Origin: a candidate division TA06 bacterium B3_TA06
Lineage (GTDB): Bacteria > Hydrothermota > Tepidihabitantia > B3-TA06
Direction: 5' to 3'
DNA: 64,000 nt
Assembly: GCA_005223075.1 (NCBI GenBank)
Contig: NJBO01000008.1
Span: 1 to 64,000, forward strand
Shown: one piece after another, positions 19,700 through 61,210 of the stretch
Layout: the number at the start of each line of letters is the position of its first letter
How positions within the stretch are numbered: the first letter of the stretch is position 1
Translations under genes and position numbers: made by a program
The notes under the pieces: generated by a model
What the model saw: only the letters and a program-made list of their open reading frames with translations
The model's database searches: none
Told to the model about the DNA's origin: nothing

Positions 19700-19758
19700 G
19701 GGCTGACCTGATACCCTATGGGATAAAAATATCCCAAGGGGCACACTGAGGTCAGCCC
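19700..19758. repeat. Nested hairpin: TACCC element inside a GGGCTGACCT palindrome
   Basis: Outer arms GGGCTGACCT (19700-19709) and AGGTCAGCCC (19749-19758) pair perfectly. Between them lies TACCCTATG-stem-CAAGGGGCA (19712-19743). Confidence 0.75.
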
Positions 19759-19950
19759 CTACGAACTACCGTCTAGTGTCGGGTGAAGCGAAGCGGACGT
19801 GCAGGCGGCGTCTGGGGTTTAAAAAAAGTTTAATTATTCGGGCTCTCAGCGACCGTAACCACACCCTGCCTGAGTGCTCACCGTAAATACGCGAGTTTAT
19901 TTCAAGGGTTACATACCACCCCACGCCGTTACGGCGTAACGCCGCGGTTT

Positions 19951-20031
19951 CCCCTCCCCCTTTGTCCCCCTACCCTATGGGATGCAGTAAAATTGGCATC
20001 CCAAGGGGCACGCTGTCCACCGGGGAGGGGG
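19951..20031. repeat. Nested hairpin: TACCC element inside a CCCCTCCCC palindrome
   Basis: CCCCTCCCC near 19951 pairs with GGGGAGGGG at 20022-20030. The TACCCTATG...CAAGGGGCA element (19971-20010, inner stem GGGATGC/GCATCCC) sits between. Confidence 0.65.
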
Positions 20032-20263
20032 AGATTACTGTTCGGGCGAACCTGAAATTTTGGCCTGGATTTAGAGTTCCTTGGATTTTTGTCTGGAATC
20101 TAAGTTCCGTAGGTTTTTGGCCAGGAATCGAAGACCCTGGAGGTTTACTCCCTTAACTAAAAACCTTGGGGGGGTCTCTATGCTGTCCTGCGGCTGGGCC
20201 TGGCAGGCTAAATGCGTACAAATAGGGCTATTACGAGATAGGTTTTAGGGGGTCAGCAAAAAC

Positions 20264-20291
20264 TTGACAAATTGCGGAAAGCGGCGAGAAT
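20264..20291 (+). promoter_or_regulatory. Promoter of the first exported-protein module
   Basis: TTGACA at 20264-20269 and a weak GAGAAT at 20286-20291, spacer 16. The surrounding 60 nt are nearly identical to the promoter region at 20985-21022. Confidence 0.6.
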
Positions 20292-20297
20292 AAAGGG

Positions 20298-20330
20298 ATG
20301 AAGGATTCAAACACAAAGGAGAAGACATGA
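20298..20330 (+). CDS. Upstream mini-ORF (10 codons), possibly leaderless
   Basis: An ATG 6 nt after the -10 opens MKDSNTKEKT, whose TGA overlaps the ATG of the next gene (ATGA). A near-identical start (MNDSNTQ) precedes the paralogous gene at 21069, which suggests a real translated leader used for coupling rather than chance. Too short to prove. Confidence 0.4.
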   Translation: MKDSNTKEKT

Positions 20331-20848
20331 ACAAGCGTTTGGCAATAGGGGTTTTGTTGGTGGTGTATGGTTTTTTGGGGGGGTGCGTTCGAGCTATATC
20401 TACAGAGGAGTTTAGGACTCTAGAGAAACAGGTCATTGGAACCCTTATCTTAGATGCTTGGGAAAATCTAGAGGATACTACAGGAGTGGTGACTTTCATG
20501 GAGGTAGTGGACGATACCAATGCAGTTGATAGTCTTGTAAAAGCAATTACGGAACAGACACTCTTTTCTCAAGGGTATTCCCTTACAGCCTTCTACGAAA
20601 AGGCTAAAGAGCTTGGTATTGATGCAACCAAGGAAATCATCAGTACAACAGAAGACGCACTGACTATAGTGGCGGGCCAATACGTGGCGGGGGCATTCGT
20701 GATAGGTTTGACAAATTTGGGTGCTCCCGAGGCTGAGCTAGACAGTATGTTAGAATTCCGTAAGTGGGCAATGGTGGATACCCTTTGCAGAAAGCGTGGA
20801 TATCTACCCCCTGATTATGAGGAAAGAATAAAGCAACATGGCCAATAA
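20327..20848 (+). CDS. Hypothetical lipoprotein
   Basis: 173 residues. The N-terminus has a signal peptide with lipobox LGGC near residue 20, so export and lipid anchoring are likely. The rest is mainly helical (for example LEKQVIGTLILDAWENLED), with no family I recognise and a short Ala/Gly-rich hydrophobic stretch (VAGQYVAGAFVIGLTNLGAP). The ATG follows AAAGGAGAAGAC and overlaps the mini-ORF stop. Its stop overlaps the ATG of the FWVWY ORF. It shares its promoter/leader with the gene at 21069 but not its protein sequence. Confidence 0.75.
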   Translation: MNKRLAIGVLLVVYGFLGGCVRAISTEEFRTLEKQVIGTLILDAWENLEDTTGVVTFMEVVDDTNAVDSLVKAITEQTLFSQGYSLTAFYEKAKELGIDATKEIISTTEDALTIVAGQYVAGAFVIGLTNLGAPEAELDSMLEFRKWAMVDTLCRKRGYLPPDYEERIKQHGQ

Positions 20849-20988
20849 TGAGGAGAACTAATTATCATTTTTGGGTCTGGTACGCCCTGGCGCGGCGTGA
20901 GGTACGTGCCCGGCAGGCACCGGGTATTCTCGACCGCCGCCCGGGTAGGCCGAAGAATCAGAGAGGCGTTGAGCTTCTGAAAACTTGA
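20848..20988 (+). CDS. Short FWVWY ORF (46 codons), probable truncated relative of the ORF at 22260
   Basis: Starts on an ATG overlapping the previous stop (TAATG). It begins MRRTNYHFWVWYALARREVR; the frame after the second exported gene (22260) begins MNLPFWVWYTLAHRI, so the two share a start and a position. This copy stops inside the -35 box of the next promoter. It is basic (Arg-rich) with no known domain. Probably a remnant or a small gene of a duplicated module. Confidence 0.45.
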   Translation: MRRTNYHFWVWYALARREVRARQAPGILDRRPGRPKNQRGVELLKT

Positions 20989-21012
20989 CAAATTGCGGAA
21001 AGCGGTGATAAT
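20985..21012 (+). promoter_or_regulatory. Promoter of the second exported-protein module
   Basis: TTGACA (20985-20990), 16-nt spacer, GATAAT (21007-21012). An ATG lies 7 nt downstream and opens the mini-ORF at 21020. Confidence 0.65.
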
Positions 21013-21019
21013 AAAGGGT

Positions 21020-21058
21020 ATGAACGACTCAAACACACAAAGTGCCCCTCAAGGGTAA
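21020..21058 (+). CDS. Upstream mini-ORF (12 codons), possibly leaderless
   Basis: MNDSNTQSAPQG, starting 7 nt after the -10 and ending 10 nt before the main ATG. It corresponds to the mini-ORF at 20298. Confidence 0.4.
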   Translation: MNDSNTQSAPQG

Positions 21059-21068
21059 AGGAGAAGAC

Positions 21069-22256
21069 ATGGGCAAGCGTTTGACGAAGGGGTTTTCGTT
21101 GGTGACGGTGGGGGCTTTAGGGTTGTTTGTTACGACCCTCTCTGCAGGCATAAGCGCACGAGCCACCCTAACCAACTGGCTGAATGCAACCTGCAGTAAA
21201 AATTGGGAGAAAGTCTATCAGTACGGCGTAACTTCAGGACCGGCTGGTGCTACCGGCTATACAATCCTCAAGGAGGACCCAGAACCGGCGATTGGGCGGA
21301 TGTGGGTTAGTAAAGACTGGGAGCGTCAATCGTTAGACAGCTTGCGCTCATGGCTCACTCAAGCAGATGCCGCAAGGGACACTGTCGAAAATGTAAATAT
21401 TGAAGCACTGGTGGCTATGGCATACGAAAAGCAATATCGGGAACGCTACGGGAACCTGCCCGATTCCTTGCTTGTGGTCACAAGGGTAGATGCCAACTTT
21501 TCTGATGAAGGCGTAGGGCTAGAAAAGGGAGATATCTTACTTACTTATGACGGGAGACCGGTATACTCTTCCCAGGTTTTCAAGGATGTTTCATGGGAAG
21601 CTACCCGAGAACGCATCAATCGAACCGAACTTGGAGAAGTTATCGCTTTTTTAAAGTCTCTCAAAAAGGACCCCCATCGAGGCATGGCTGAGCTGGTGAT
21701 CCTGCGGGCCGGAGATACGCTCAGCATCTGGTGTCCCAGAGAAGGCTATTGTATTGCCCCCACGTTATCATTAAAAGCAACTATCGAACCCCCCAACATC
21801 ATAGGTGCCGCCAGGATGCGTGCAAGGGAATATTATAGGAAATGCCAGATCTTCGGCGCGCAGATCTCCCTGATTAATCGTGCTTATAAATGCGTTGGCT
21901 CGCTGCCCCCGGCAAGATCGGGTCCTGACTTCCGGGCCAGCCTCCTCGGGATGAGGATGATTCTTGATAACGGCATGGAGTTTGCCCTTATCTCTCAGGG
22001 GCACCCCGATGTGGCGGCTGCAATGTTAGAGCCGGAAGATTTGGAGTGTATGGGGAAGGGTACATTGGTGATCAGGAACAAAACTTTTGATGTTGAGGCC
22101 CACGGCATATTCCAGAGTGGAGTATTTAAAGGACTGCCCTGGGCGTGGCATTACGACGTTTGGGTCGCCCGTTGTGACCGTGTGGTGAACGAGGAGACTA
22201 TCCCTGGTAAATGGTTGGTAATCGGAGCCATCGAATATGAGAGTTGGGAAGAGTAA
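21069..22256 (+). CDS. Exported protein with a PDZ-like segment
   Basis: 395 residues from the ATG at 21069, which follows AAAGGAGAAGAC; an in-frame ATG 27 nt earlier overlaps the mini-ORF and lacks a signal context. A signal peptide or N-terminal anchor (LVTVGALGLFVTTLSAG) is followed by a PDZ-like core near residues 150-175 (GVGLEKGDILLTYDGRPV). The rest has several Cys and Trp residues and no recognised catalytic motif. Role unknown; a periplasmic binding or scaffold function is possible. Confidence 0.7.
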   Translation: MGKRLTKGFSLVTVGALGLFVTTLSAGISARATLTNWLNATCSKNWEKVYQYGVTSGPAGATGYTILKEDPEPAIGRMWVSKDWERQSLDSLRSWLTQADAARDTVENVNIEALVAMAYEKQYRERYGNLPDSLLVVTRVDANFSDEGVGLEKGDILLTYDGRPVYSSQVFKDVSWEATRERINRTELGEVIAFLKSLKKDPHRGMAELVILRAGDTLSIWCPREGYCIAPTLSLKATIEPPNIIGAARMRAREYYRKCQIFGAQISLINRAYKCVGSLPPARSGPDFRASLLGMRMILDNGMEFALISQGHPDVAAAMLEPEDLECMGKGTLVIRNKTFDVEAHGIFQSGVFKGLPWAWHYDVWVARCDRVVNEETIPGKWLVIGAIEYESWEE

Positions 22257-22259
22257 TCC

Positions 22260-22913
22260 ATGAATCTTCCCTTTTGGGTGTGGTATACCTTGGCGCACCG
22301 GATACATGCAGGCCAACTATACCGCAGCGACCGAAGGGGGGCGTCCCGTAAAAACCTTCCACCTTACCGGTTCGGGGAGCGCATAACCCTTCCCCAAACC
22401 TACTGGGACGGCGGGGCCTGGGCTATGCCGCCGAAGTCAGTATCAAAAGACGACCCCGGCGGCGCCCGTTCCCGTCTTTACGTCTACTTCCAGGATCGCG
22501 GCTATGGTCGTTCTAAGCCTCTCTTTGTATCCCGGCACTGGTGTTCCCTCGCGGCGCAGGACTGAACTGGCGCTATGAGGCTCTGCGAGGCCGCTACGGG
22601 CTATCCCCGGACAACGCCCGGCTTGTGATCTCTATTGAGGACGGCAAGGACTACTCTGAGAACGCCTTAAAAGTTGCCAAGCACCGCGGAGCGGCAGATA
22701 ATAGAGGAGATCCTCTCTCGTCCGCCTGGAGAGTGTCAGGGGATGACCTGGGAGGAGTATAAAGCACTTAGAGAGATGTCCCCCCAGGCTCAGACGATCC
22801 GGATTCCCCGGACATTGAACTCTGTTTGGCCACCTGAACTTGTAACCTTTTTTAAGGGACGAAACCTGCTCGGCAAGACCTTTTCGATCCCTCACCGACC
22901 GCCTTCCAGATAG
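22260..22913 (+). pseudogene. Decayed FWVWY gene with two frameshifts
   Basis: Starts 3 nt after the preceding stop. Coding-like sequence passes through three segments: 22260-22565 (start FWVWYTLAHR, later LYVYFQDRGYGRSKPLF), then about 22560-22680 in another frame (NWRYEALRGRYGL and DNARLVISIEDGKDYSENAL), then back in the first frame to 22913 (AERQIIEEILSRPPGECQ and MTWEEYKALREM). Together this would be about 215 residues. No family is recognised. The arrangement looks like one gene broken by two indels, though assembly error cannot be excluded. Confidence 0.5.
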
Positions 22914-23054
22914 CTTTCCCTGTAACCTTTTTGAGGGTAAATGAAGCCTCCCTAGCTGCCTTCCTCATGTAACCTTTCCCCCCTTGACATCGCCCTCAAA
23001 TTGCATAATGTTCGTGCAGACCCAACTTTACTTTGGCATAGTCGCCGACAAATT

Positions 23055-25112
23055 CTAGTGAAGCTTCAGCACTATCGGTTCCTGGCTCAGCCGGGCCATG
23101 CCTTCCACAAGCTCCTTGTACTTCGGGTACTCCTGGGGCGGAATCCACGGCTTAAGCACCTGCAGGCTTTCTGAAAACTGCAGAACCCCGCGTCCGGGCT
23201 GCACAAACGTCGCGGCATAAGAATCATAGGAGTTGCTGATGGAGACATCCTGTGGGTAGTATATAAGCTCGGCACCTGGCGGCAGCTGCAGGCTGAGGTT
23301 CAGGATATCCGCGCTTCGTGTAACGCGATCTATCGGGTACGCTCGATCCCTTGCACCTACCCAGTAAGCGGAGTGTTCAACACCAGGCAGGTAGAGTATA
23401 AGGTACTCGCCCGCACGGGTAGCGTAATCAGGGATGCTGACGTTTAATGTGTAGGTAATGTTTTGGTTCAGAGGTGCTATCCCGCGGAACCGGAAGTCTT
23501 TAAGCCTGGCGTTTGGATGGATCTCTGCTGCCAGTTCTTCGGCCTCCTGTCTAAGCTCGGCAGGGGAGAGGGGTTTGAGATATCGCTTCCACCAGGCTGA
23601 GTTCTGGCCATTGAACTCGACGTCCACAGTGAGATCAAGTGAACCGTCTGCTCTTAGCTGGGCGAGGGTACTGGTGATTGTTGCCTCTTCGTTGGGGGTG
23701 CGCAGCGGCGTCTTCTTGAGCTTGCCTGAGGAAAGCGAAAGCCCCATCGCATCCTGGTCTGAGGTGGTACCGAAACCTACGTTTGAGTTTGGGTCGAGGT
23801 AGATTCGGTCCTCAAACAGGACAAGTGCCGTATTAAGCTGACCTAAGGTGGGGAAGGTGGGGACCACTCGCCCGCTTGAGCGATCGCGTATAAGTACAAG
23901 ATCTGCTTCCAGACCGGCTTCCCTCATAAGAACGCAAAGCAGCGCCGCCCGATCAAGGTTGTTCGCGAAACCTCGAACGAGCACCGTTTCTGCAAGGGTT
24001 GAAACGTAGGAATAGGAATCAAGTGAAGGGCCAGCGGGACGAATAGAGGCGGCAACGAACTCGTACAGGGCGCGGGCCTTTTCTTCCGATGCAGGGAGGC
24101 CTTGTGTGAGCGAATCAACGACCTGAGTAAGTCTTTCACCGGGCTGGATTGCCTTATCTGCATGCGCGCGTAGGGACCTTGCAATGGAGTGCCAATCCTT
24201 CTCCTCGGCGACGATGAAATGTGGCAGGTAATCTGCTGCCGGCGGGGTCATCTGCTCGAACCGTAGTGGTGGCTGGTTTTGTATGCGCCAGGTGAGTATC
24301 TCGCGGCCTTTCCTGGTTTCGCGTTCGGGCTTTTGTCCGCTCGACGCATAGACTGCAAGATGTCCGCCTTGGGGTTGCTCAACCCGGATGATCTCCATCA
24401 TCGTAGGTTGCCTATCCTCCAGTACTATCTCTTCACATATCGGGTGGATGCTGTCGGCTACGTTCTGGATGGTCGAGAACTGAAAATCAAGCACCGAACC
24501 GACCCTTGATTCAGGAACCGCTATTTGTAGCTGGGTAAGATTGCTATATTCAGCAGGAGCAGGATAGCGGCTTACCCTGTTGATTGCCGCCTCGGTTATG
24601 TGGTTTATCTCTCCATCAGGGCTGTAGCTGCGTGCAAAGTCTACCTTTGCATAGGCCCTATCCGCCAGATAACTCCAGGTATTGTTTGCGGCAGCACCTT
24701 TGCCTGACTCGGCGGATACGTAGCGTATCACCCTCATGCGTTTCTCAAAGGTTCCATCCTCATGCAGGATAAAATTATGCTCCACGTAGAGATTTACGTA
24801 CCGTACATCTATCTGAGGCGGGGTGAAGGTGGTAAGTATTTCTTTAAGGATTGAATCGTCGATGTCTTTTAAGGTTTTCCATTCCTCACCCTGTCTTGGC
24901 TGGGGAAGATCAAGTCCTCTTATCTCGGATTTGGCAAATGCAAGGGTGCCCTCTTCAGCCCTAAACCACAGGCTGTCTGCGGTTATACGTTCAAGTGCCC
25001 CTATCTTTTCTTCTCCGCTCAAGAGGTAGATCACGTCGTGGCTCGTGCGTACCGCTTGCCTGCATCCGGTGGTTGCAAGGATCAGGATAAGGAATGATAG
25101 AAGACGGTTCAC
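23055..25112 (-). CDS. DUF3857/transglutaminase-like lipoprotein lacking the catalytic Cys and His
   Basis: 685 residues. The signal ends in lipobox TTGC. The protein has the DUF3857 layout: an N-terminal beta domain, a central transglutaminase-like domain and a C-terminal beta domain (DUF3858-like). In the active-site position its paralogue has GDCTDKAILFATLL; this protein has GFANNLDRAALLCVLM, so Cys is replaced. The His position reads LNTALVLFEDRIYLD, keeping only the Asp. A binding or structural role is therefore likely. It overlaps the upstream gene by 4 nt (ATGA) and is the second gene of a two-gene operon. Confidence 0.85.
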   Translation of the reverse strand: MNRLLSFLILILATTGCRQAVRTSHDVIYLLSGEEKIGALERITADSLWFRAEEGTLAFAKSEIRGLDLPQPRQGEEWKTLKDIDDSILKEILTTFTPPQIDVRYVNLYVEHNFILHEDGTFEKRMRVIRYVSAESGKGAAANNTWSYLADRAYAKVDFARSYSPDGEINHITEAAINRVSRYPAPAEYSNLTQLQIAVPESRVGSVLDFQFSTIQNVADSIHPICEEIVLEDRQPTMMEIIRVEQPQGGHLAVYASSGQKPERETRKGREILTWRIQNQPPLRFEQMTPPAADYLPHFIVAEEKDWHSIARSLRAHADKAIQPGERLTQVVDSLTQGLPASEEKARALYEFVAASIRPAGPSLDSYSYVSTLAETVLVRGFANNLDRAALLCVLMREAGLEADLVLIRDRSSGRVVPTFPTLGQLNTALVLFEDRIYLDPNSNVGFGTTSDQDAMGLSLSSGKLKKTPLRTPNEEATITSTLAQLRADGSLDLTVDVEFNGQNSAWWKRYLKPLSPAELRQEAEELAAEIHPNARLKDFRFRGIAPLNQNITYTLNVSIPDYATRAGEYLILYLPGVEHSAYWVGARDRAYPIDRVTRSADILNLSLQLPPGAELIYYPQDVSISNSYDSYAATFVQPGRGVLQFSESLQVLKPWIPPQEYPKYKELVEGMARLSQEPIVLKLH

Positions 25113-27196
25113 TGGGCACCTCCATCTACGAGTATGAGTATGGGTTTTTTGTGGTAGCTGGTGATAGAGTTAAGTAGTCTTCGATAATCTCGATACCTAT
25201 CAGACTGGATGAGTCGTTCAGGACGGCTGAAGGTGTCTTCGAAATGGATTACGTTTCCTTCCTCCTGGATGTAGACCGCGTGATAGGAGACCTCAGACAT
25301 AGAAAGCGTTATATCCTCTGGCAGATAATCCACTTCCCAATCCTCGGGAAGCTTGAGGGTTACTTCGTGGAGAATACTCTCGCTCGTGTAGTAAGAAAGC
25401 GGGAAGTTTCGGCTCTCAAGCGCCACCTCGTCAAAGGTAAGCCTTTCACCTACCCCAGGCAGGTTTATGATAGCCAGAGGCCCGGCGAACTTAACATAGT
25501 CCTTGACCCTGTATGTCATCTTGAGGCTGAGCTGCTTGCCTATATCTTCAAGATTTTCGAACCCGTAGTCTATCAGCTCCGCGTCAGGTGATGTAGCTTT
25601 CACCATCTGCTCGAATCGTATGCGGCGGTCCTCCTCCCTTGAGAGGTAATTCCAGAAGTAGCGCAGGCCTGTCTCGTAATCGCCTTCATAGAAGCTCTGA
25701 TATTTCACGGTGAGCGTGCCTTCTGCGTCTATCTCCATATCGAGATGGTACTCCCTCAGCTCCTGACCGGGATCGGGAACCGGTATTTTCTCTACTTTTC
25801 TCTTCTGCGAATTTACCGTGTAGACCCCGTGGTCTGCGGCGTTGAACGAGGGGTAACGTGAGTATCCTCCGTTTGATGAACCGGTGGCATCGAGATAGAA
25901 ACTTGTGTCGGCAAGGAATACCTCGGTGATGCAATGGTTGCCGTAGTAGCCTGGCATCTCTGGGTCAAGCATTGATGCATCGTCGTTTGTGCCTACGTAG
26001 ACCGGGTCGGCGTCTATACCTGCGGCCCGCAAAAGGGTTGCAAAAAGGATGGCCTTGTCAGTGCAGTCGCCGAAGCCCTGCTCTAATGTAAACTGGGCAG
26101 GGTGACCTGAAACCCCGGATGATGCGGAACCCTTGATGGAGATATAGCGAATGTTTTGCTGGAGCCAGTGGTATATGGCGGCTGTCTTTTCGTGCTCGGT
26201 ATCGGCACCAGCGGTCAGGCTGTCGGCAAGGGCTTGAACCTTAGTGGTAATCTTCATGCGTTCGTTCTGGAAGGCCGCGTACCAGTCGTGTATGCCGTTC
26301 CAGTTTTCCTGATTCGTTACCTCTACGCGCGGCAGGAAATCCCCTGCCGGAGGTGCGTCAGGTTCAGGTACGTAGGGATCAACATTCTCCGCAACCCAGG
26401 TGTAGATCTTGCGGCTCTTCTTTACCTCTTGTCTAAAATCCATCATACCCCCAGGCGCGTTATAGACCTTCCATTTGATAAACTCGTCTTCGGGTACGTC
26501 AACGACAAGTCGGGAATAGATGAATGGCTCATCGCCCTGGAAGAAGTAACCTGCGTCGAAGAACTCCTTGTTCCAGGGGTTGAAACGGATGTTCTCGTAG
26601 GAGTACTCAACGATATCGTCTATCTGGACCTCGGGGAGAGTGAAGGTTACCCATTTACCCTTGCCGAAGAAGACGATACCTTCGCGCGGAGGGGTTTCGA
26701 TCTTTACGGTGGACGGATCAAGATCAACAACACGACCGTCCGGCTTTATAACTCGCGCAAAGTGAATCCTTACCTCGTTGTCTCCCTCTTTAAAGTAATG
26801 GCGGAATGTCGCCACACCCTTACGTGCCTCGGAGAGTACAACGTAAGCCATGTGATATGAGTAGTTTCTGGTTCCGTCATCGTGCAGGGTGTTGCGCCCG
26901 TCATCGATCAATAGTATCCCCTTGGTCTCTGGAAAGCGTTCTTTGGCTTTGTTAGCTTTTGCCAGAAGTTCCTGCACATCCTCGTCCGTGCGTACCGTTC
27001 CTGTTTCTTGTCCACCTTGCGTCTCGAAGACGATAGATTTTACCAGCGCTCGAGGGATGGTCTCTTGATCGGTTATGACGTTCGAACCGTCAAATTCAAG
27101 CGTTTCGGTTGCGGAACTCTGCCCGTCGTGGAGCTCAACCTTGGCTGCAAGTCCCAACCCCACAAGGGTTATCAAACTTATTACCAAACGTCTCAT
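25109..27196 (-). CDS. DUF3857/transglutaminase-like exported protein with intact triad
   Basis: 695 residues with a signal peptide (VISLITLVGLGLAA). DUF3857 domain at about 50-250. The transglutaminase-like domain near 300-420 carries Cys in GFGDCTDKAILF, His in GNHCITEVFL and Asp in FYLDATGSS. A C-terminal beta-rich domain follows. The substrate is unknown; family members often lie near surface or secretion genes in Bacteroidetes-like bacteria. The ATG follows TGGAGG and has a clear promoter upstream. Confidence 0.87.
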   Translation of the reverse strand: MRRLVISLITLVGLGLAAKVELHDGQSSATETLEFDGSNVITDQETIPRALVKSIVFETQGGQETGTVRTDEDVQELLAKANKAKERFPETKGILLIDDGRNTLHDDGTRNYSYHMAYVVLSEARKGVATFRHYFKEGDNEVRIHFARVIKPDGRVVDLDPSTVKIETPPREGIVFFGKGKWVTFTLPEVQIDDIVEYSYENIRFNPWNKEFFDAGYFFQGDEPFIYSRLVVDVPEDEFIKWKVYNAPGGMMDFRQEVKKSRKIYTWVAENVDPYVPEPDAPPAGDFLPRVEVTNQENWNGIHDWYAAFQNERMKITTKVQALADSLTAGADTEHEKTAAIYHWLQQNIRYISIKGSASSGVSGHPAQFTLEQGFGDCTDKAILFATLLRAAGIDADPVYVGTNDDASMLDPEMPGYYGNHCITEVFLADTSFYLDATGSSNGGYSRYPSFNAADHGVYTVNSQKRKVEKIPVPDPGQELREYHLDMEIDAEGTLTVKYQSFYEGDYETGLRYFWNYLSREEDRRIRFEQMVKATSPDAELIDYGFENLEDIGKQLSLKMTYRVKDYVKFAGPLAIINLPGVGERLTFDEVALESRNFPLSYYTSESILHEVTLKLPEDWEVDYLPEDITLSMSEVSYHAVYIQEEGNVIHFEDTFSRPERLIQSDRYRDYRRLLNSITSYHKKPILILVDGGAQ

Positions 27197-27221
27197 CTAT
27201 CCTCCAGGGATTCTAAGCTTA

Positions 27222-27249
27222 ATTCTAGGCCAAAGCGGAAGGGAGTCAA
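27222..27249 (-). promoter_or_regulatory. Promoter of the DUF3857 operon
   Basis: On the minus strand TTGACT (27249-27244), 16-nt spacer, TAGAAT (27227-27222), 25 nt before the ATG, with TGGAGG in between. Confidence 0.7.
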
Positions 27250-39334: not shown

Positions 39335-39606
39335 AATCTAAGAAACTTTTACAGGAACTTGAGCTGGTGGCCGAGAAGCTCGGCATACAGACGGTCTACG
39401 ATACCTTTCAGGGTAGGGGAGGGGGCTGTCGGGTTATCGAGGACCGTTACATCGTGATCAACAGCCGTCTGGCTGATGAGATAAAGGCTGAGCTCTTCCT
39501 TAAGGCGCTTTCCGAGCTTCCCATAGACGAGATATACATAAAGCCTGAGATCCGCGAGTTGCTTGAGGAAGCGCGGAAATCCAGACCACAAACCGAGTCA
39601 ATGTAG
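39331..39606 (+). CDS. Conserved hypothetical protein (91 residues)
   Basis: GTG start overlapping the epimerase stop (GTGA), so translationally coupled. It contains GIQTVYDTFQGRGGGCRVIE and DRYIVINSRLADEIKAEL, a mixed alpha/beta small protein. I do not know its family. Its stop codon TAG belongs to the palindromic repeat that begins GTAGGGGCACGGCA at 39603. Confidence 0.7.
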   Translation: MKSKKLLQELELVAEKLGIQTVYDTFQGRGGGCRVIEDRYIVINSRLADEIKAELFLKALSELPIDEIYIKPEIRELLEEARKSRPQTESM

Positions 39607-39695
39607 GGGCACGGCATACCCTATGAGATGCCAAGCATCTCAAGGGGCAGGCTCTGCCGTGCCCCTACAACAGGCGAACCTGAAGGTTCGCGCTA
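39603..39695. repeat. Nested hairpin repeats between convergent genes
   Basis: GTAGGGGCACGGCA (39603-39616) pairs perfectly over 14 bp with 39655-39668; inside is a TACCC element (39617-39649, inner stem GAGATGC/GCATCTC). Next comes GCGAACCTGAAGGTTCGC and CTAC. The whole intergenic space is repeat, and both flanking genes take their stop codon from it. Confidence 0.85.
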
Positions 39696-48964: not shown

Positions 48965-50503
48965 ATGAAGCGTGTGTTCGTATTAACAATCAGCGTGCTG
49001 CTGGTTAGCGCGGTTGGTTTAACCGCCCAGGTTGTCGAAGAATGGGTAGCTCGCTACGACGGACAGGCAAACGGCCTTGATATTGCCAAAGCCTTGGCAA
49101 TAGACGATGAAGACAACGTGTACGTTACAGGCTACAGCGACGGTTCAGGAACTAACTCTGACTATGCGACCGTAAAGTACAACTCCTCAGGCGTCGAGCA
49201 ATGGGCAGCTCGCTACGACGGCCCGGCAAGCTTTCAAGATGGAGGCCGAGCCATGGCAATAGACGGTGCAGGCAACGTCTACGTTACAGGCATGAGCTGG
49301 GGTTCAGGAACCTCCGATGACTATGCGACCGTCAAGTACGGCTCCACAGGTGTCCAGCAATGGGTAGCCCGATACGACGGTCCGGGAAACGTTAGTGATG
49401 GAGCCACTGCCATAGCAATAGACGGTGAAGGCAACACCTACGTTACAGGCGCCAGCGGCGATGACTATGCGACCGTAAAGTACAACTCTTCAGGCGTCGA
49501 GCAATGGGTAGCCCGGTACGACGGTCCAGGGGACGATGAAGATTATGCTACCGCCATGGCAATAGACGATGCAGGCAACGTCTACGTCACAGGCTGGAGC
49601 TTGGGTTCAGAAGTCGACAATGACTATGCGACCGTAAAGTATAATTCCTCAGGGGTCGAGGAATGGGCAGCCCGGTACGACGGCCCGGCAGGCGGTGACG
49701 ATTTAGCTTTTGCCATGGGGGTTGATGGTTCAGGCAACGTCTACGCGACAGGCACCAGCTCCGGTGACTATGCGACTGTAAAGTATAATTCCTCAGGGGT
49801 CGAGCAATGGGCAGCCCGGTACGACGGCCCGGCAAGCGGTAACGATTTAGCTTTTGCCATGGCAGTTGACGGTTCAGGCAACGTCTACGCGGCAGGCACC
49901 AGCTCCGGTGACTATGCGACTGTAAAGTATAATTCCTCAGGGGTCGAGCAATGGGCAGCCCGATACGACGGACCGGCAAGCGGTGGAGGAGTCTATGCCA
50001 TAGCTGTTGATGGTACAGGCAGCGTCTACGTTACAGGCTACAGCGAGGGTTCAGGAACCTCTACTGACTATGCGACCGTAAAGTATAACTCCTCAGGGGT
50101 CGAGGAATGGGTAGCCCGGTACGACGGCCCGGCAAGCGGTAATGATGAAGCCTTTGCTCTGGCGCTTGACGGTACAGGCAACGTCTACGTAACAGGCTTG
50201 AGCGAAGGTTCAGGAACCAACTGGGACTATGCTACCGTAAAGTATAGCCAGGGGTCAGGTGTGGCGGAAGCTCCGGAATCCTCCCCCATACTGGTTTCTA
50301 CCTCTCTCAACCGATTGTCCTACGAACTCTCAGGCAGCGCTTCGCTTACCCTGTACTCTGCCGATGGGCGAAAGGTGCTTGAAGAAATGGTGGAAGGCCA
50401 AGGTATCTGGGAAGCGCCAGCATCGTTAGCCCAGGGCGTCTATTTCGTACGTTTAGAAGCGGGTTCCTTCAACGCTACAAAAAAGCTGATTCTTCACAGA
50501 TAA
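48965..50503 (+). CDS. SBBP beta-propeller protein with C-terminal T9SS-type sorting domain
   Basis: 512 residues. Signal peptide (VLTISVLLVSAVGLTAQ), then eight repeats of about 48-52 residues built on DYATVKYNSSGVEQW and GNVYVTGYS; eight blades fit a closed propeller. The last 75 residues (SLTLYSADGRKVLEEM, GVYFVRLEAGSF, KKLILHR) look like a Por-type sorting domain, so export and surface attachment are expected. Repeats 5-7 are nearly identical at DNA level. SD AAGGAGG. The 219 nt upstream hold no other gene. Confidence 0.9.
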   Translation: MKRVFVLTISVLLVSAVGLTAQVVEEWVARYDGQANGLDIAKALAIDDEDNVYVTGYSDGSGTNSDYATVKYNSSGVEQWAARYDGPASFQDGGRAMAIDGAGNVYVTGMSWGSGTSDDYATVKYGSTGVQQWVARYDGPGNVSDGATAIAIDGEGNTYVTGASGDDYATVKYNSSGVEQWVARYDGPGDDEDYATAMAIDDAGNVYVTGWSLGSEVDNDYATVKYNSSGVEEWAARYDGPAGGDDLAFAMGVDGSGNVYATGTSSGDYATVKYNSSGVEQWAARYDGPASGNDLAFAMAVDGSGNVYAAGTSSGDYATVKYNSSGVEQWAARYDGPASGGGVYAIAVDGTGSVYVTGYSEGSGTSTDYATVKYNSSGVEEWVARYDGPASGNDEAFALALDGTGNVYVTGLSEGSGTNWDYATVKYSQGSGVAEAPESSPILVSTSLNRLSYELSGSASLTLYSADGRKVLEEMVEGQGIWEAPASLAQGVYFVRLEAGSFNATKKLILHR

Positions 50504-53647: not shown

Positions 53648-53675
53648 ATCTTACGCGGATTCGGAAAGAGGTCAA
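53648..53675 (-). promoter_or_regulatory. Promoter of the 52809-53642 lipoprotein gene (leaderless)
   Basis: Minus-strand TTGACC (53675-53670), 16 nt, TAAGAT (53653-53648), 5 nt before the ATG. Confidence 0.7.
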
Positions 53676-53739
53676 TCCTTTAAATGCTTCTTTTTCAGAA
53701 TCCTCCTTTCCGCCTGACGGCGGAAAGATCGGAGAACCT

Positions 53740-53802
53740 GTAGGGGCGACGCAGAGCCTGCCCCTTGAGATGCTTGACATCTCATAGGGTATGCCTCGCC
53801 CC
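53740..53802. repeat. Nested hairpin: TACCC element (inverted) inside a GTAGGGGC palindrome
   Basis: GTAGGGGCGACGCA (53740-53753) pairs 10 of 11 positions with TGCCTCGCCCC (53792-53802). Inside lies TGCCCCTTG-stem-CATAGGGTA (53759-53791). A separate hairpin CTTTCCGCC/GGCGGAAAG is at 53706-53728. Confidence 0.8.
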
Positions 53803-53821
53803 GAAAGTGTATCAGGTTGTA

Positions 53822-55732: not shown

Positions 55733-55748
55733 GTTTCCTCCTTTGTTA

Positions 55749-55776
55749 ATAGTAAGAGTAACAGAAGCTTTGTCAA
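55749..55776 (-). promoter_or_regulatory. Promoter of the S9 peptidase gene
   Basis: Minus-strand TTGACA (55776-55771), 16 nt, TACTAT (55754-55749). Confidence 0.7.
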
Positions 55777-55801
55777 CAAGAGGCAGTTGTTCTCTTAAAT
55801 C

Positions 55802-55829
55802 TTGACAACACCGCAGGCCAAGGTATAAT
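55802..55829 (+). promoter_or_regulatory. Promoter of rnfEAB (leaderless)
   Basis: TTGACA (55802-55807), 16 nt, TATAAT (55824-55829), 7 nt before the rnfE ATG; divergent from the peptidase promoter. Confidence 0.8.
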
Positions 55830-55836
55830 CCGCGCA

Positions 55837-56514
55837 ATGAGCTCTGACTCCGGAAATCTTGACCTCACCCAAAAAGAAATCAAGGAGCCGCTGTTGTCAC
55901 CCAAGCCCAAGGGTGAGTCCAACTGGCAGATATTCTCCAAAGGCATAATCCTTGAGAACCCGGTTTTGATCCTCATGCTGGGATTGTGTCCGGTGCTTGC
56001 CACCTCGACTACCGCGCGCGATGCCGCCGGAATGTCCGCCGCGGTGCTCTTTGTACTCCTTATGTCGAACATCGTGGTTTCGGCGCTTCGAAAAATCATC
56101 CCCAACGAGATCCGCATTCCGGTATTTATCGTAATTATCGCTACCTTCGTTACCATTGCCGACTACGTCTTGCAGGCTTACACCCCTGACCTTTACAGTG
56201 TGCTGGGTATTTTCGTTCCCCTCATCGTGGTTAACTGTATCATCCTCGGCCGGGCCGAGGGGTTCGCCTACCATAACGGTGTGGGGAGATCTATTCTGGA
56301 CGGCCTGGGCAAGGCTATAGGCTTTGCCTTAGCGATTATCCTCATGGGTTCTATCCGCGAGATTATCGGTAAGGGTACCTGGTTCGGTATGTCTGTCTCA
56401 CCCTCCTGGTTTCGCTCCAACGCGGTGCTCTTCTTCGGGTTACCTCCCGGTGCATTCCTGGTGATCGGGCTTCTTAAGGCCTGTATAAACAAGATATTCA
56501 AGAGAGAGGGGTAG
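55837..56514 (+). CDS. rnfE: Rnf electron transport complex subunit E
   Basis: 225 residues, about six membrane segments. It carries the RnfD/E family signature region (IILENPVLILMLGLCPVLAT, LGIFVPLIVVNCIILGRAE, SIREIIGKGTWFG). A 30-residue hydrophilic N-terminus precedes it. Part of the membrane ferredoxin:NAD oxidoreductase that pumps Na or H. The first gene here; rnfC, rnfD and rnfG are not upstream. Confidence 0.94.
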   Translation: MSSDSGNLDLTQKEIKEPLLSPKPKGESNWQIFSKGIILENPVLILMLGLCPVLATSTTARDAAGMSAAVLFVLLMSNIVVSALRKIIPNEIRIPVFIVIIATFVTIADYVLQAYTPDLYSVLGIFVPLIVVNCIILGRAEGFAYHNGVGRSILDGLGKAIGFALAIILMGSIREIIGKGTWFGMSVSPSWFRSNAVLFFGLPPGAFLVIGLLKACINKIFKREG

Positions 56515-56515
56515 G

Positions 56516-57136
56516 ATGAATACTCCACTTCTTGCTATCCTATTCGGCGCGATATTCGTGAACAACATCGTGCTCATGCGTTTCCTGGGGCTTTGTCCAT
56601 TCTTCGGGGTTTCAACGCGCCTCTCCACCGCCATCGGGATGAGCAGCGCGGTGCTTTTTGTTATGACCTTTGCGACGTGGATCACCTGGGGCGTTTACCA
56701 TCTGGTGCTTGTCCCGGGTTCGGTGATCCTGGGCGGCATACTCCCCCAAGGTCTTGTCTTCCTGCGCACGGTGAGCTTCATCCTTGTGATCGCGTCGCTC
56801 GTTCAGCTGGTTGAGATGTTTCTCAAAAAATTCGTTCCGGTGCTCTATTCGGCTCTGGGAATATATCTTCCTTTAATCACTACCAACTGCGCGATCCTGG
56901 GAGTTGCTTTCCTTGTTATCGACAACAAATTCGGCTTCCTTCAGGGTACGATCTTTGCCATCGGCACGGCCCTTGGGTTTGGTCTGGTCATGGTTCTGTT
57001 TGCAGCCATCCGTGAACGTCTGGAGCTGGCGCCCATCTCAAAGTCATTCCGAGGCTATCCTATAGCGTTCATTGCCGCTGCACTTGTTTCAATCGCCTTC
57101 TTCGGCTTTGTCAACATGTTCGGGATCTCGCCTTGA
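56516..57136 (+). CDS. rnfA: Rnf electron transport complex subunit A
   Basis: 206 residues, six membrane segments. Family motifs NNIVLMRFLGLCPFFGVS and LGIYLPLITTNCAILGVAF, with the paired Cys that hold an intramembrane iron-sulfur site with RnfE. It begins 1 nt after rnfE; the TGA overlaps the rnfB ATG. Confidence 0.95.
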   Translation: MNTPLLAILFGAIFVNNIVLMRFLGLCPFFGVSTRLSTAIGMSSAVLFVMTFATWITWGVYHLVLVPGSVILGGILPQGLVFLRTVSFILVIASLVQLVEMFLKKFVPVLYSALGIYLPLITTNCAILGVAFLVIDNKFGFLQGTIFAIGTALGFGLVMVLFAAIRERLELAPISKSFRGYPIAFIAAALVSIAFFGFVNMFGISP

Positions 57137-58143
57137 TGGGTACGATAGTTCTTGTTGCCCTGGCTTCTCTGGGAGGATTGGGATTAATCCTGGTGGCGAT
57201 ACTTGTTTTTGCCCACCGTAAGCTTGGGGTTAAGCCGAATCCTTTGGAGGAAAGCATCCGTGCGATTCTTCCCGCTGCCAACTGCGGTGCATGCGGTTAT
57301 CCGGGCTGCGAGGCGTTTGCCGCTGCCATTGCCAAGGGAGATGCCCCGGCTGATGCCTGTCCTGTGGGCGGACCATCCCTTGCAGAACAGATCGGTGAGA
57401 TAATGGGCGTGGAGGTGGTGGGTGGCGAGCACAAGGTGGCGTTTCTCTTATGTCAGTGCGGAAATGACATCGTGGCAGAGTCAGCCGACTACCAGGGCAT
57501 CCGCACCTGCCGTGCAGCTAACCTGATCACCGGCGGAACCAAGGCCTGCCAATACGGGTGTCTGGGATACGGCGACTGTGAGGAAGTCTGTCCCTTTGAC
57601 GCCATCCACATGGGATCTAACGGCTTGCCTATAGTTGACCGCTCCAAATGCACGGGCTGCGGCATCTGCGTGCAGGTTTGTCCGAAGGACGTGCTGAGGC
57701 TCATACCGATCTCAAAAGAGGTCTACCTTGCTTGTAACTCGTTTGAGCGGGGCAAGGCGGTGCGCGACGTGTGTAAAAAAGGCTGCCACGCCTGCTCGAT
57801 CTGCGTGAAGATGTGCCCCTATGACGCGCTCCAGATGGTTGATAACCTGCCGAAGATGGATCTTGATAAGTGCACCGACTGCGGCATCTGTTATGCCAAG
57901 TGCCCGGTAAAGAGCTGCTTCGTGGACTTTGCCGCCCCGCGTCCCAAGGCAGAGATAGAGATTTCGAGATGCGAGGGTAATCACAAGTGCTTTGAAGCCT
58001 GCAAGTTCAAGGCGATCGAGGGCGAGGAAGGCGAGATTCACACGATTATTGAAGAGAAGTGCGTGGGCTGCGGCGAGTGCGTAAAGGCCTGTCCTACCGG
58101 TGCTTGCACACAGCTGGCAAAGGTAAAAGCCCCGGTTGCATAA
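57136..58143 (+). CDS. rnfB: Rnf electron transport complex subunit B, ferredoxin-rich form
   Basis: 335 residues. N-terminal membrane anchor (ALASLGGLGLILVAILVF), the Fe-S domain NCGACGYPGCEAFAAA, and then at least five 4Fe-4S motifs (for example CTGCGICVQVC, CHACSICVKMC, CTDCGICYAKC, CVGCGECVKAC). It accepts electrons from reduced ferredoxin. Longer than the short proteobacterial form. ATG at 57136 preferred over the TTG one codon earlier. Confidence 0.95.
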   Translation: MGTIVLVALASLGGLGLILVAILVFAHRKLGVKPNPLEESIRAILPAANCGACGYPGCEAFAAAIAKGDAPADACPVGGPSLAEQIGEIMGVEVVGGEHKVAFLLCQCGNDIVAESADYQGIRTCRAANLITGGTKACQYGCLGYGDCEEVCPFDAIHMGSNGLPIVDRSKCTGCGICVQVCPKDVLRLIPISKEVYLACNSFERGKAVRDVCKKGCHACSICVKMCPYDALQMVDNLPKMDLDKCTDCGICYAKCPVKSCFVDFAAPRPKAEIEISRCEGNHKCFEACKFKAIEGEEGEIHTIIEEKCVGCGECVKACPTGACTQLAKVKAPVA

Positions 58144-58202
58144 TACAATCACCCCTTAAAAGAGCGCTTGAACCCTGTCTGCTGAGGCAATTTCGTGGGC
58201 TG

Positions 58203-58330
58203 AAAAAGCTGGTCAAAAGTTGGACAAAAGCTCCCCAAAAGATGGACAAAAGCTGGACACGCTCTTGAAGATTATCTTGGAAAAAAGCTGGTCAAAAGAT
58301 AGACTAAAGTTGGCCAAAAATTGGACAAAA
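58203..58330. repeat. 11-bp phased A-tract array, copy 2
   Basis: A-tracts start at about 58204, 58215, 58226, 58237 and 58248, then at 58283, 58294, 58305, 58316 and 58327, all 11 bp apart within each group. Units follow GNTGGNCAAAA. Confidence 0.8.
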
Positions 58331-58376
58331 TTCGGGGTCCCCGGACGGATGCGAAGCAGACGTCTGGGGTGAAAAA
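58331..58376. repeat. GGGGTCCCC hairpin (family 1)
   Basis: TTCGGGGTCCCC, imperfect stem, CTGGGGTGAAAAA; closest to 19637-19682 (both contain AGCAGACGTCTGGGGT). Confidence 0.7.
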
Positions 58377-58630
58377 GTTGGACAGGAACGCGACTGAGTC
58401 GCAATATCAAATTGCAAAATGCAAATTTTAAAATGCAAAATGTAAAAGAGTTAGCTCAGACTTGCAGCAGAGAGCTGAGCGAATGTCTGGGGTGAAGAGT
58501 TGGGTTAATAGGTGACGAATCTATCCGGCCGCTCTTGGCTGGATACCGATGAACAGACAGGAGGCGCAGGGACCGACGTATGCAGCCAAGGCTGCAAGCT
58601 ACGCTTCAGGTAGGCCCGGTTTCATTATAT

Positions 58631-58731
58631 GTCATTGCGAGCCTCAAAGAGGCGAAGCAATCCCAAAAATATCTTATCGAATATAGGGAAGAGGTATGAG
58701 ATTGCTTCGTCGCTTCGCTCCTCGCAATGAC
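58631..58731. repeat. GTCATTGCGAG palindromic element, copy 1
   Basis: Ends GTCATTGCGAG and CTCGCAATGAC, with inner arms GAAGCAATC and GATTGCTTCG. Further copies at 60010-60130, 60763-60899 and 60954-61098; half a copy ends at 27485. Confidence 0.85.
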
Positions 58732-58956
58732 AAGGCCGGATAATCACCAATAGAGTGTAGCGCGGATTCTGTAGTCCGCGGGATGGTTCCAACAGTATGG
58801 AGTGCAATGACCGTGTCATTGCAGCAACAACCCTCACCTTTAATTCTTCTCGCAGACGTAGGGGCCGGGCATTAAACCGGCCCGAATAATTCACCGTGCG
58901 GGCCGACCTAAAGGTCGGCCCCTACGACTCCTCGCAATGACGATAGGGGACGGCAT

Positions 58957-59004
58957 GTAGTGCGAACCTTCAGGTTCGCAAGCGAGGCTGAAGCCTCGCG
59001 CTAC
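58957..59004. repeat. GTAG...CTAC double hairpin overlapping a stop codon
   Basis: GTAGTGCGAACCTTCAGGTT then CGCAAGCGAGGCTGAAGCCT and CGCGCTAC. The last CTA (59001-59003) is the stop codon (TAG on the minus strand) of the TIR/NDT-like gene. Confidence 0.8.
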
Positions 59005-59843
59005 TCTTCTTCAAATACAAGCTCTTCAAGGTAAGGTTGCGCGAGTGGATCTATGCCCCAATAAATCTTGTCAGATTGCCCTGGCCCTATTTCCGTAGCT
59101 ACCCGCACAATTATTCGTTCATCTTCTAGAACTTCCCTATAAATATTATAAAAGTCGACCTGAGTAAAATCTATCGGTTGAGCTAAGTTTGTTCTATAGC
59201 TATAGAACCACGACCACAATTTGCCTGTGTGTTTCCACTTTTTCGCTAATAGTAGAAATCTTAAAAGCGTTTTTTGATTGGGGCTTAGTCTTTCATAAAT
59301 GGAGCGCCAGTATTTCCTTTGTTCTCTTTCAGAGGCTGTATCAACTATGACATTCTCAATGAAAGGAGGCACTTCCTTTTCCAGTTTCTTCATGAGTTCA
59401 CTCCTATTTCCATGTTCGATAACGAGCTGATCGGAAAGATCAAATGCTATGTCTTTTAAGGTCTTCTTCTGTGCCTTGAGAATATTCCTACTGGCCATGT
59501 ATAGATTCCGTTTTCCCATACCCATCATCATTCCAGCTTCGAGATATACATTTAGGTTTTCTGGAGTTAATATCACTAATCCGAAATCCGAAGCTTGTGC
59601 AAGACGACATATTTTACAGATTTTGATTCCTAATCCAACTTCTTCGCGAGCGTCAAATACGTGGTAGGTTGGTGATTGGAAGAATCTTTTTATTGTATCT
59701 ACAAGGTAATCATCTTGCTCAGAAAATTGGTACATCAGAAAGGCCGTGTATTTCTCTGCTCTTTCAAGTTGCTCTTTCTCAGTTTCAAGTAGATTACAAC
59801 GACGAGGGTAGTTTTTCGGACACCTCAGATTGAATGTTGCCAT
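59001..59843 (-). CDS. TIR/NDT-like nucleotide-binding-fold protein with C-terminal helical domain
   Basis: 280 residues, AT-rich. Residues 30-150 resemble the TIR-like or nucleoside-deoxyribosyltransferase-like fold: FDAREEVGLGIKICKICRLA, SDFGLVILTPENLNVYLEAG with Glu102 and MMGMGKRNLYM, the pattern seen in predicted nucleotide-processing effectors. The C-terminal 110 residues (LSPNQKTLLRFLLLAKKWKH) may be a winged helix. No enzyme activity can be assigned. Promoter sequence shared with the HEPN gene at 62179. A defence role is inference. Confidence 0.65.
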   Translation of the reverse strand: MATFNLRCPKNYPRRCNLLETEKEQLERAEKYTAFLMYQFSEQDDYLVDTIKRFFQSPTYHVFDAREEVGLGIKICKICRLAQASDFGLVILTPENLNVYLEAGMMMGMGKRNLYMASRNILKAQKKTLKDIAFDLSDQLVIEHGNRSELMKKLEKEVPPFIENVIVDTASEREQRKYWRSIYERLSPNQKTLLRFLLLAKKWKHTGKLWSWFYSYRTNLAQPIDFTQVDFYNIYREVLEDERIIVRVATEIGPGQSDKIYWGIDPLAQPYLEELVFEEE

Positions 59844-59864
59844 CTCAAACTCCTCTTTTCCTCA

Positions 59865-59892
59865 AGCATACCAACACCGCTTGCTTTGTCAA
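59865..59892 (-). promoter_or_regulatory. Promoter of the TIR/NDT-like gene
   Basis: Minus-strand TTGACA (59892-59887), 16 nt, TATGCT (59870-59865), with GTTGGTATGCTTG also present at the HEPN promoter. Confidence 0.75.
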
Positions 59893-59912
59893 GTGCTTTT
59901 ATTCTTCGCTTG

Positions 59913-60130
59913 TGGAGTGCAATGACCGTGTCATTGCAGCAACAACCCTCACCTTTAATTCTTCTTGCAGGCGTAGGGGCCGACCTTTAGGTCGGCCCGT
60001 TTCATTGTTGTCATTGCGAGGAACGTTCGGCTCCGAAGGAGACGCGTGACGAAGCAATCTCGTTGCACTAACCTAGTATTCATAGAAAAGAGCTATGAGA
60101 TTGCTTCGCCTCTTTGAGGCTCGCAATGAC
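59913..60130. repeat. Repeat cluster upstream of hicAB
   Basis: 59913-59999 nearly duplicates 58798-58884 (both contain GTGCAATGACCGTGTCATTG and end in a GGGGCCG hairpin). 60010-60130 is a full GTCATTGCGAG element. From 60131 to 60233 nothing else is recognised. Confidence 0.8.
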
Positions 60131-60233
60131 GAAAGGAGAGACCTCGTAGGGCCGTTAATGTGGCGCTGACTCTCCAGTCTGCGCGATTATTTTACAGAAC
60201 AGTCTATTCTACATTCCGTCAGCGCGGAAACCC

Positions 60234-60261
60234 TTGACATGCGTTATCCCCCATGTATAGT
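60234..60261 (+). promoter_or_regulatory. Promoter of hicAB (leaderless)
   Basis: TTGACA (60234-60239), 16 nt, TATAGT (60256-60261), 6 nt before the TTG start at 60268. It fixes the start, because the ATG at 60253 is upstream of the expected transcript. Confidence 0.75.
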
Positions 60262-60267
60262 TCTCTA

Positions 60268-60468
60268 TTGAAGGTTCATGAGGTTATAAAGATGATAGAG
60301 GCCGACGGCTGGTATCTGGTTGCAACGAAAGGCAGCCATCGACAGTATAAACATCCTACCAAGCGTGGACGGGTGACCATTGCGGGTCATCCCAATCATG
60401 ATCTAGCCGCAGGTACTCTAGATAGTGTCCTCAAGCAGGCACAGTTAAAGAAAAAGGAAAGGAGGTAG
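60268..60468 (+). CDS. hicA: HicA-family mRNA interferase toxin
   Basis: 66 residues from the TTG at 60268. The sequence KVHEVIKMIEADGWYLVATK, GSHRQYKHPTKRGRVTI and LAAGTLDSVLKQAQL matches HicA, with the catalytic His in GSH. Toxins of this family cut mRNA and are held inactive by HicB, encoded 2 nt downstream. The longer ORF from 60253 would begin before the -10 ends. Confidence 0.93.
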   Translation: MKVHEVIKMIEADGWYLVATKGSHRQYKHPTKRGRVTIAGHPNHDLAAGTLDSVLKQAQLKKKERR

Positions 60469-60470
60469 GC

Positions 60471-60683
60471 ATGCACCGTTTCCTTATTGTTATCGAAAAG
60501 GCTGAGGGTAACTACTCGGCGTATTCGCCTGACTTGCCAGGTTGTGTGGCAACCGGCCAGACTCGTGAGGAGCTTGAGCATAACATGTATGAGGCAATAG
60601 AGCTTCACATCCAGGGGCTTCAAGAGGATAATCTGCCGGTTCCCGAACCCCACGCAGTTGCAGAGTACATTGTAATCAAGTAA
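60471..60683 (+). CDS. hicB: HicB-family antitoxin
   Basis: 70 residues. The partially degraded RNase H-like fold of HicB is clear (VIEKAEGNYSAYSPDLPGCV, ATGQTREELEHNMYEAIELH). Short form without a C-terminal DNA-binding domain, so autoregulation is uncertain. SD AGGAGG. Followed by a terminator. Confidence 0.93.
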   Translation: MHRFLIVIEKAEGNYSAYSPDLPGCVATGQTREELEHNMYEAIELHIQGLQEDNLPVPEPHAVAEYIVIK

Positions 60684-60703
60684 GTAACTCCCGAAAGAAA
60701 TTG

Positions 60704-60732
60704 AAGCCGCCGCAAGGCGGCTTTTACCTTTT
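60704..60732 (+). terminator. Terminator of hicAB
   Basis: AAGCCGCC (60704-60711), GCAA loop, GGCGGCTT (60716-60723), then TT and a further T-run. Confidence 0.85.
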
Positions 60733-60762
60733 TTCGTCGCAAGGGCGGTGTTTCTTTTCTCC

Positions 60763-61210
60763 GTCATTGCGAGCAAGCCCACGGCTTGCGAAGCAATCTC
60801 TAAACATTTAGATAACCCCCAAGCCTTTTTGCATCCTGGAATGGGATTATTCGCTACGCTCACCCTTCGGAGCTTCGTTGCTTCGTTCCTCGCAACGACA
60901 AAGGGGGAATCAACGTAGGGGCCGACCTTCAGGTCGGCCAGTTTTCATTACCCGTCATTGCGAGGAACGTTCGGCTCCGAAGGAGACGCGTGACGAAGCT
61001 CCGAAGGGCGACGGTAACGGAGCAATCTCATTGCACTAACCTAGTATTCATAGAAAAGAGCTATGAGATTGCTTCGCCTCTTCGAGGCTCGCAATGACGA
61101 TGGGGGAGACGTTGAATAAAACATGTAGTGCGAGGTTCAGTGTGCCCCTTGAGCGCTTTAGGCGCTCATTGGGTATTAGACTCGCTAGCGAACCTAAAGG
61201 TTCGCGCTAC
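60763..61210. repeat. Repeat cluster between hicB and the HEPN gene
   Basis: Two GTCATTGCGAG elements (60763-60899, 60954-61098), a GGGGCCGACC/GGTCGGCC hairpin near 60917-60940, and a GTAG...CTAC repeat (61125-61210) into whose first half a TACCC element (61143-61175) is inserted. 60954-61098 is nearly identical to 60010-60130 apart from an extra 24-nt piece near 61006. Confidence 0.85.

Follow-up and report, generated by a model that had tools for sequence, protein, structure and literature searches.

The closest described counterparts of the mobile hairpin analyzed here are the GTAG REPs and their RAYT/TnpA-REP enzymes (PMC3733652, PMC6006769, PMC8266576), which share with it a hairpin of 20 to 50 nt in dozens of intergenic copies, an unpaired tag at one foot, a bulged stem, subfamilies that vary in the stem, and the presence of Y1 genes in the genome. 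TnpA-REP recognizes the folded REP in a strand-specific manner that depends on the tag, bulge or loop, and cleaves at CT and, in the case of one enzyme, at CA (PMC8266576). The CGTC REPs also resemble the present element in being hairpin repeats without a dedicated transposase, and in H. neapolitanus they lie inside palindromes (PMC3733652). REPs within palindromes have been reported in three species; those of A. variabilis and T. roseum form, like the element, a short hairpin family inside a second palindrome, and the target palindromes of T. roseum are present in hundreds of copies (PMC3733652). Miniature mobile palindromic DNA is further represented by the REPINs, which are RAYT-linked and for which excision has been reported (PMC3116915), and certain insertion sequences likewise use REPs as preferred landing sites (PMC1525189).

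Copies in the window, structure and distribution

The window, which is the whole 64,000-nucleotide stretch of DNA that was analyzed, had been proposed in a first-pass annotation to hold five copies of a mobile palindrome that targets hairpin loops. All five were present, three on the plus strand and two on the minus strand, and had been located correctly, but each is in fact 5 nt longer than had been thought, the 3' tail belonging to the element. The copies, their hosts and the insert-free REPs nearby are as follows.

19712..19748, plus strand: copy 1, 37 bp, inner stem GGGATA AAAA TATCCC, tail CACTG (from sequence and free fold)
19700..19762, minus strand: host REP of copy 1, GGGCTGACCTGA + element + AGGTCAGCCCCTAC, GTAG tag on the minus strand (simple TGACCTGAAGGTCAGCCCCTAC REPs occur elsewhere in the genome)
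19971..20015, plus strand: copy 2, 45 bp type, tail CGCTG (from sequence)
19950..20034, no strand assigned: C-rich host repeat of copy 2, ..CCCTTTGTCCCCC + element + TCCACCGGGGAGGGGG, junction spanned by a hairpin
39617..39654, plus strand: copy 3, 38 bp, tail GGCTC (from sequence and free fold)
39603..39668, no strand assigned: double-foot palindrome around copy 3, GTAGGGGCACGGCA + element + TGCCGTGCCCCTAC
53754..53791, minus strand: copy 4, 38 bp, tail GGCTC (from sequence)
53740..53802, no strand assigned: palindrome around copy 4, GTAGGGGCGACGCA ... TGCCTCGCCCC
61138..61175, minus strand: copy 5, 38 bp, TACCCAATG variant, tail CACTG (from sequence)
61125..61187, no strand assigned: host of copy 5, imperfect REP, GTAGTGCGAGGTT / TTAGACTCGC
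58904..58925, plus strand: simple GTAG REP, insert-free, the empty form of the copy 1-type target
59973..59994, minus strand: simple GTAG REP without insert
60915..60936, minus strand: simple GTAG REP without insert (CGACCTGA / AGGTCGG)

All window copies are intergenic, and an Rfam search of the window returned a single match, a tRNA, leaving the element unmatched. The hosts of copies 1, 3, 4 and 5 are GTAG-tagged palindromes from families with simple copies elsewhere, that of copy 5 being imperfect, while copy 2 occupies an abundant C-rich hairpin repeat; the enclosing inverted repeats formerly described as unrelated are present, but they belong to repeat families and are not one-offs. The window also carries intergenic tandem 11-bp repeats, AAAAGNTGGNC, near shared TTCGGGGTCCCCG segments (19459-19535 and 58193-58337; also in the flanks of loci L038 and L169), and, at 48965-50503, a 512-amino-acid open reading frame of beta-propeller (SBBP) repeats with a DNA periodicity of 144 to 159 bp.

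The element measures 37 to 45 bp and consists of TACCCTATG, a variable compensated stem, CAAGGGGCA and a 5-nt tail, which directly follows GGGGCA and reads CRCTG in the majority of copies, with GRYYC in most of the remainder. TACCC, ATG and CAAGGGGCA are invariant in the aligned copies, while the stem between them changes freely with its pairing kept: 93 double-changed cells were counted, compared with 33.6 in shuffles, and 96.5% of positions pair, compared with 26 to 61% when the partners are slid. The conserved A-A mismatch formerly read in the flanks is replaced, on free folding, by a single bulged A between CCCT and the variable stem, i.e., CCCT(A)TG../..CAAGGG. Mismatches within the variable stem, as read on the top strand, are A-C in 14 cases and G-T in 2 (two-sided p ~0.004, for related sequences that are not fully independent). 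Because a top-strand A-C corresponds to G-T on the opposite strand, folding seems to involve the strand that carries the tag at its 5' end; on this strand the tag reads CAGYG or GRRYC and stands unpaired on one side of the hairpin. Two neighboring copies, L014 and L016 (contig C2, about 232-235 kb), have identical stems and an inverted 3-base loop (GCA / TGC).

Collection of all genomic copies, a check that the first-pass annotation had suggested, confirmed the family. Using a strict pattern (TACCCNATG, 8 to 38 bases, CAAGGGGCA), 61 exact copies were found in the 2.41-Mb genome containing the window, compared with ~0.009 expected by chance genome-wide and none for the same pattern read backwards. 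Exact copies number 25 to 56 in each of four genomes of the same genus and 4 and 3 in two of the same family, and the pattern was absent from the 34 other genomes searched, which comprised order- and class-level relatives. Matches in other phyla were set aside, being isolated and, among the matches listed, not forming the hairpin. With a covariance model, nine genomes arranged by kinship yielded 74, 53, 88, 56, 29, 4, 5, 0 and 0 copies, respectively, at most 150 candidates being scored in each. The hosts of this hairpin are a group of uncultured WOR-3 (Stahlbacteria) bacteria, in which it occupies dozens of sites per genome.

Filled and empty sites

Empty versions of the outer palindromes, which the first-pass annotation had proposed to seek in relatives, were found, and they bear out its suggestion of a mobile palindrome. 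At locus L035, this genome carries GGCGGGCCGACCTAA, a 38-bp insert and AGGTCGGCCCCTACGA, the insert sitting at the exact center of a GTAG-type REP; with flanks alignable in both cases, genome G001 retains the same REP minus the 38 bp, and genome G003 retains an empty REP, GGCGGGCCGACCTGA / AGGTCGGCCCCTACGA, in which CTGA replaces CTAA. The empty REP is thus kept in two relatives, and L035 is read as a gain because a loss would require independent losses in G001 and G003. The reverse arrangement was found at a second orthologous locus, where G001 holds exactly 38 bp between TTGACGGGA and GGGGGTAGG and this genome is empty, with closely matching flanks. By parsimony, both loci would represent gains into pre-existing sites, precise loss also being conceivable. 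Paralogous empty sites were identified in an IS30 transposase gene and elsewhere, and neither these nor the two orthologous loci display a target-site duplication, as is characteristic of IS200/IS605-type (Y1) insertion. The insertions are single 38-bp units, as opposed to the two inverted REPs that move together in a REPIN, and on these alignments the element moves as one unit and inserts precisely.

Its boundaries are set independently by copies lying within copies, of the form TACCCTATAGGA-element-TGCAGTAAAG, which place the ends at TACCC and at the tail. The self-nested copies at a position common to this genome (ATAGGA / TGCA) and G002 (ATGAGA / TGCA), whose boundaries agree, are as follows.

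L020, 1600-1644: self-nested copy
L117, minus strand, 4992-5037: self-nested copy
L113: self-nested copy

When exactly the element is removed from copies that lie in REPs, standard REPs such as GGGCCGACCTGAAGGTCGGCCCCTAC are regained, and 46 simple REPs of matching subfamilies are present in this genome. As regards the window copies, the site of copy 3 is filled in G004 and, in G003, partly deleted between GGGGCA repeats; G001 shows an intact empty palindrome there, which is not taken as proof because the right flank alone is homologous. The intergenic flanks of copies 4 and 5 could not be aligned in the relatives. Outside the window copies, adjacent repeats are rearranged at the first copy of locus L141 and at L127. 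At L282 (G000, contig C9, about 63.7 kb), a truncated element runs straight into the sequence of a GTAG-type REP, which may have inserted into it.

These sites bear on two other explanations. The enclosing REP and the inner hairpin might travel as a single long REP whose loop is structured, moved by the REP's own transposase, and such a reading would account for the linkage of inner and outer types (see below) and for three copies that share an identical inner and a near-identical outer sequence; REP families with long self-complementary loops are, moreover, known (PMC3733652). As only the 38 bp differ between relatives at two loci, it is refuted as the sole route, and the same inner hairpin also occurs in unrelated outer contexts and outside palindromes; we consider this reading unlikely. 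The compensatory stem changes and the intergenic position of the window copies could alternatively denote a structured RNA or terminator that is kept by selection and is not mobile. This is contradicted by the exact empty and filled pairs, and insertions in transposase genes, copies within copies, occurrence in both orientations and the lack of an Rfam match also speak against it; any folded RNA would, furthermore, have to come from the other strand because top-strand mismatches are almost all A-C. We regard such a function as scarcely credible.

Target preference

A junction was counted as lying in a hairpin where it falls within a perfect inverted repeat of at least 6 bp made up by the joined flanks, by direct inverted-repeat count; the folding energy of the joined flanks was dropped as the sole palindrome test owing to its insensitivity. 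By this measure, hairpins hold 64% of the 58 copies counted in this genome (28 of 46 nonredundant sites, or 61%), compared with 6% of 1,500 noncoding and 4% of 1,500 arbitrary window positions. This represents a 10-fold enrichment relative to the noncoding positions of the window, and the equal rate outside palindromes that the first-pass annotation had named as its refutation was not seen in this genome. A C-rich intergenic repeat, CACCCTCCCCCTACCCCCTCCCGTCAAGGGAGGGGG, which is abundant (e.g., at L008, L030 and L141), is the element's commonest host here. Junctions in this genome fall in the 5' arm in 25 cases, in the loop in 12 and in the 3' arm in none, while controls are roughly symmetric; the loops formerly named as the target are therefore entered, but so are hairpin arms. 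GTAG feet lie downstream only in 33 copies and upstream only in 6 across all genomes, the respective counts in this genome being 12 and 0.

The bias is no absolute rule. The hairpin fraction of sampled copies in G000 (this genome) to G004 is 64, 80, 14, 67 and 38%, respectively; many copies of G002 lie at TCTG / TGGT in a nonpalindromic repeat, with differing unique flanks, and some copies interrupt or enter transposase genes. The bias is strong in most genomes but not in all, and the "always nested" placement is a property of the sample, holding for the five window copies and not for the family. With ~64% of copies in hairpins, yet others in transposase genes and in the nonpalindromic sites of G002, the hairpin is a REP-like miniature mobile element whose bias for hairpin repeats is strong and nonexclusive.

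The first two bases past the junction are TG, TC or AG at 74 of 92 nonredundant sites, compared with a background of ~20%, and on the tag strand CA, GA or CT immediately precedes the tag, with no longer motif. Inner stem type is tied to host repeat type (mutual information 2.10, compared with 1.10 when shuffled; p ~2e-4), which may signify either that composites are copied as units after a first insertion or that subfamilies differ in target. Recombination between copies also seems to occur; one junction in G001 has the left flank type of window copy 1 on one side and, on the other, the right flank of window copy 2.

Much of this could reflect a short sequence preference alone, with the hairpin location a by-product of abundant, dispensable repeats and of amplification inside mobile repeats. 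The 14% of sampled G002 copies in inverted repeats, with many at TCTG / TGGT, the transposase genes entered, the strong dinucleotide preference and the stem-host linkage are all consistent with this, and we hold it to be a serious contender, if somewhat short of an even chance. It is opposed by the 10-fold enrichment and the empty 3' arm class in this genome, and by the two clean orthologous loci at which the hairpin predated the insertion.

Candidate enzyme and relation to known systems

Four genes of this genome (L064, L071, L074 and L078) score above the NCBIfam cutoff for REP-associated tyrosine transposase, so that the Y1 or HUH transposase the first-pass annotation anticipated is represented, but for no gene is the element the nearest bracketing repeat. 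Each adjoins its own tagged REPs of other kinds (GTAG or GGAG), including host-type REPs; L074 has an element copy on both sides, with GTAG REPs nearer. G001 likewise carries several such transposases (L065, L073, L075 and L077), flanked by differing hairpins with GTAG- or GGAG-like tags. A scan of the Y1 loci L064 to L080 with model R1 placed the element near L064, L074 and L075 only; where read, the nearest bracketing repeats were other tagged hairpins, and among the Y1 genes of the eight genomes examined none had the element in that position. Assignment of a cognate transposase by proximity was accordingly ruled out. A larger autonomous form ending in TACCC.. / ..GGGGCA was also sought, and the TACCCTATGR half-sites proved to be decayed or truncated copies or chance matches, none of them gene bearing.

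Because no transposase gene has the element as its own nearest repeat, we infer the enzyme, and mobilization by an HUH/Y1 REP-associated transposase is the likeliest route. Junction asymmetry and wobble bias would be compatible with a folded single strand, and the CA, GA and CT preceding the tag agree loosely with the published TnpA-REP cleavage sites; the top-strand sequence before the junction lacks the conservation expected of a classical IS200/IS605 left cleavage site. A non-Y1 enzyme (e.g., IS110-type or a serine recombinase), or an enzyme that these genomes have lost or whose gene went unassembled in them, would fit the failure to find a cognate Y1 gene, the CGTC REPs that are likewise reported without one (PMC3733652) and the IS elements that insert into REPs (PMC1525189). 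The duplication-free insertion, strand asymmetry, and tag and bulged hairpin match described Y1 enzymes and REPs (PMC8266576), and we deem the non-Y1 alternative rather doubtful.

We favor, as probable, a REP-like miniature element that moves as a single strand by means of a trans-acting Y1 enzyme and lands in repeats. Its unit is one hairpin, with a conserved lower stem, one bulged base, a variable paired upper stem and an unpaired 5-nt tag. Insertion is precise, strand asymmetric and duplication free, with TG, TC or AG preferred as the top-strand dinucleotide directly after it. Movement is presumed to proceed on single-stranded DNA, where an HUH/Y1 REP-associated tyrosine transposase, acting in trans, would bind the folded strand that carries the tag. 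Landing in another repeat, in its loop or 5' arm, may be tolerated, and some composites may then be copied onward. More tentatively, the element may represent a third REP tag class, neither GTAG nor CGTC, whose complex recognizes a folded hairpin target; hairpins of other REP families would then be favored landing sites, and composites would arise by design and not by tolerance.

For the spread of REP-type palindromes, the base-exact empty and filled pairs and the target dinucleotide constitute a natural insertion record; the 38-mer and its REP target are, furthermore, defined substrates for probing hairpin-into-hairpin insertion by Y1 enzymes. A structural basis of the hairpin preference, if borne out, would mean that miniature DNA elements have a distinct way of choosing their targets.

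With GTAG REPs the element shares a short palindrome (20 to 50 nt) in many intergenic copies, but it lacks both the unpaired GTAG (or GTGG/GYRG) tag at the 5' foot, having CAGYG or GRRYC instead, and the bracketing of a cognate RAYT gene. Unlike GTAG REPs, it lands inside GTAG REPs, brackets no gene as nearest repeat, and shows exact singlet insertions with empty sites. It differs from CGTC REPs in tag, stem and loop, carrying no unpaired CGTC/TGTC/CCTC tag, and membership of either class fails because of its tag. The A. variabilis and T. roseum REPs have one fixed outer consensus, and orthologous empty sites are not described for them (PMC3733652), whereas the hosts here include several REP families, the element itself and nonpalindromic sites. 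REPINs move as doublets, and no loss of singlets was seen in them (PMC3116915), whereas here singlets move; the REP-targeting insertion sequences are complete, with a transposase gene (PMC1525189), whereas the element spans 37 to 45 bp and codes for nothing. What it adds to these known systems is its tag, the variety of its hosts, its self-nesting and its base-exact orthologous empty sites.
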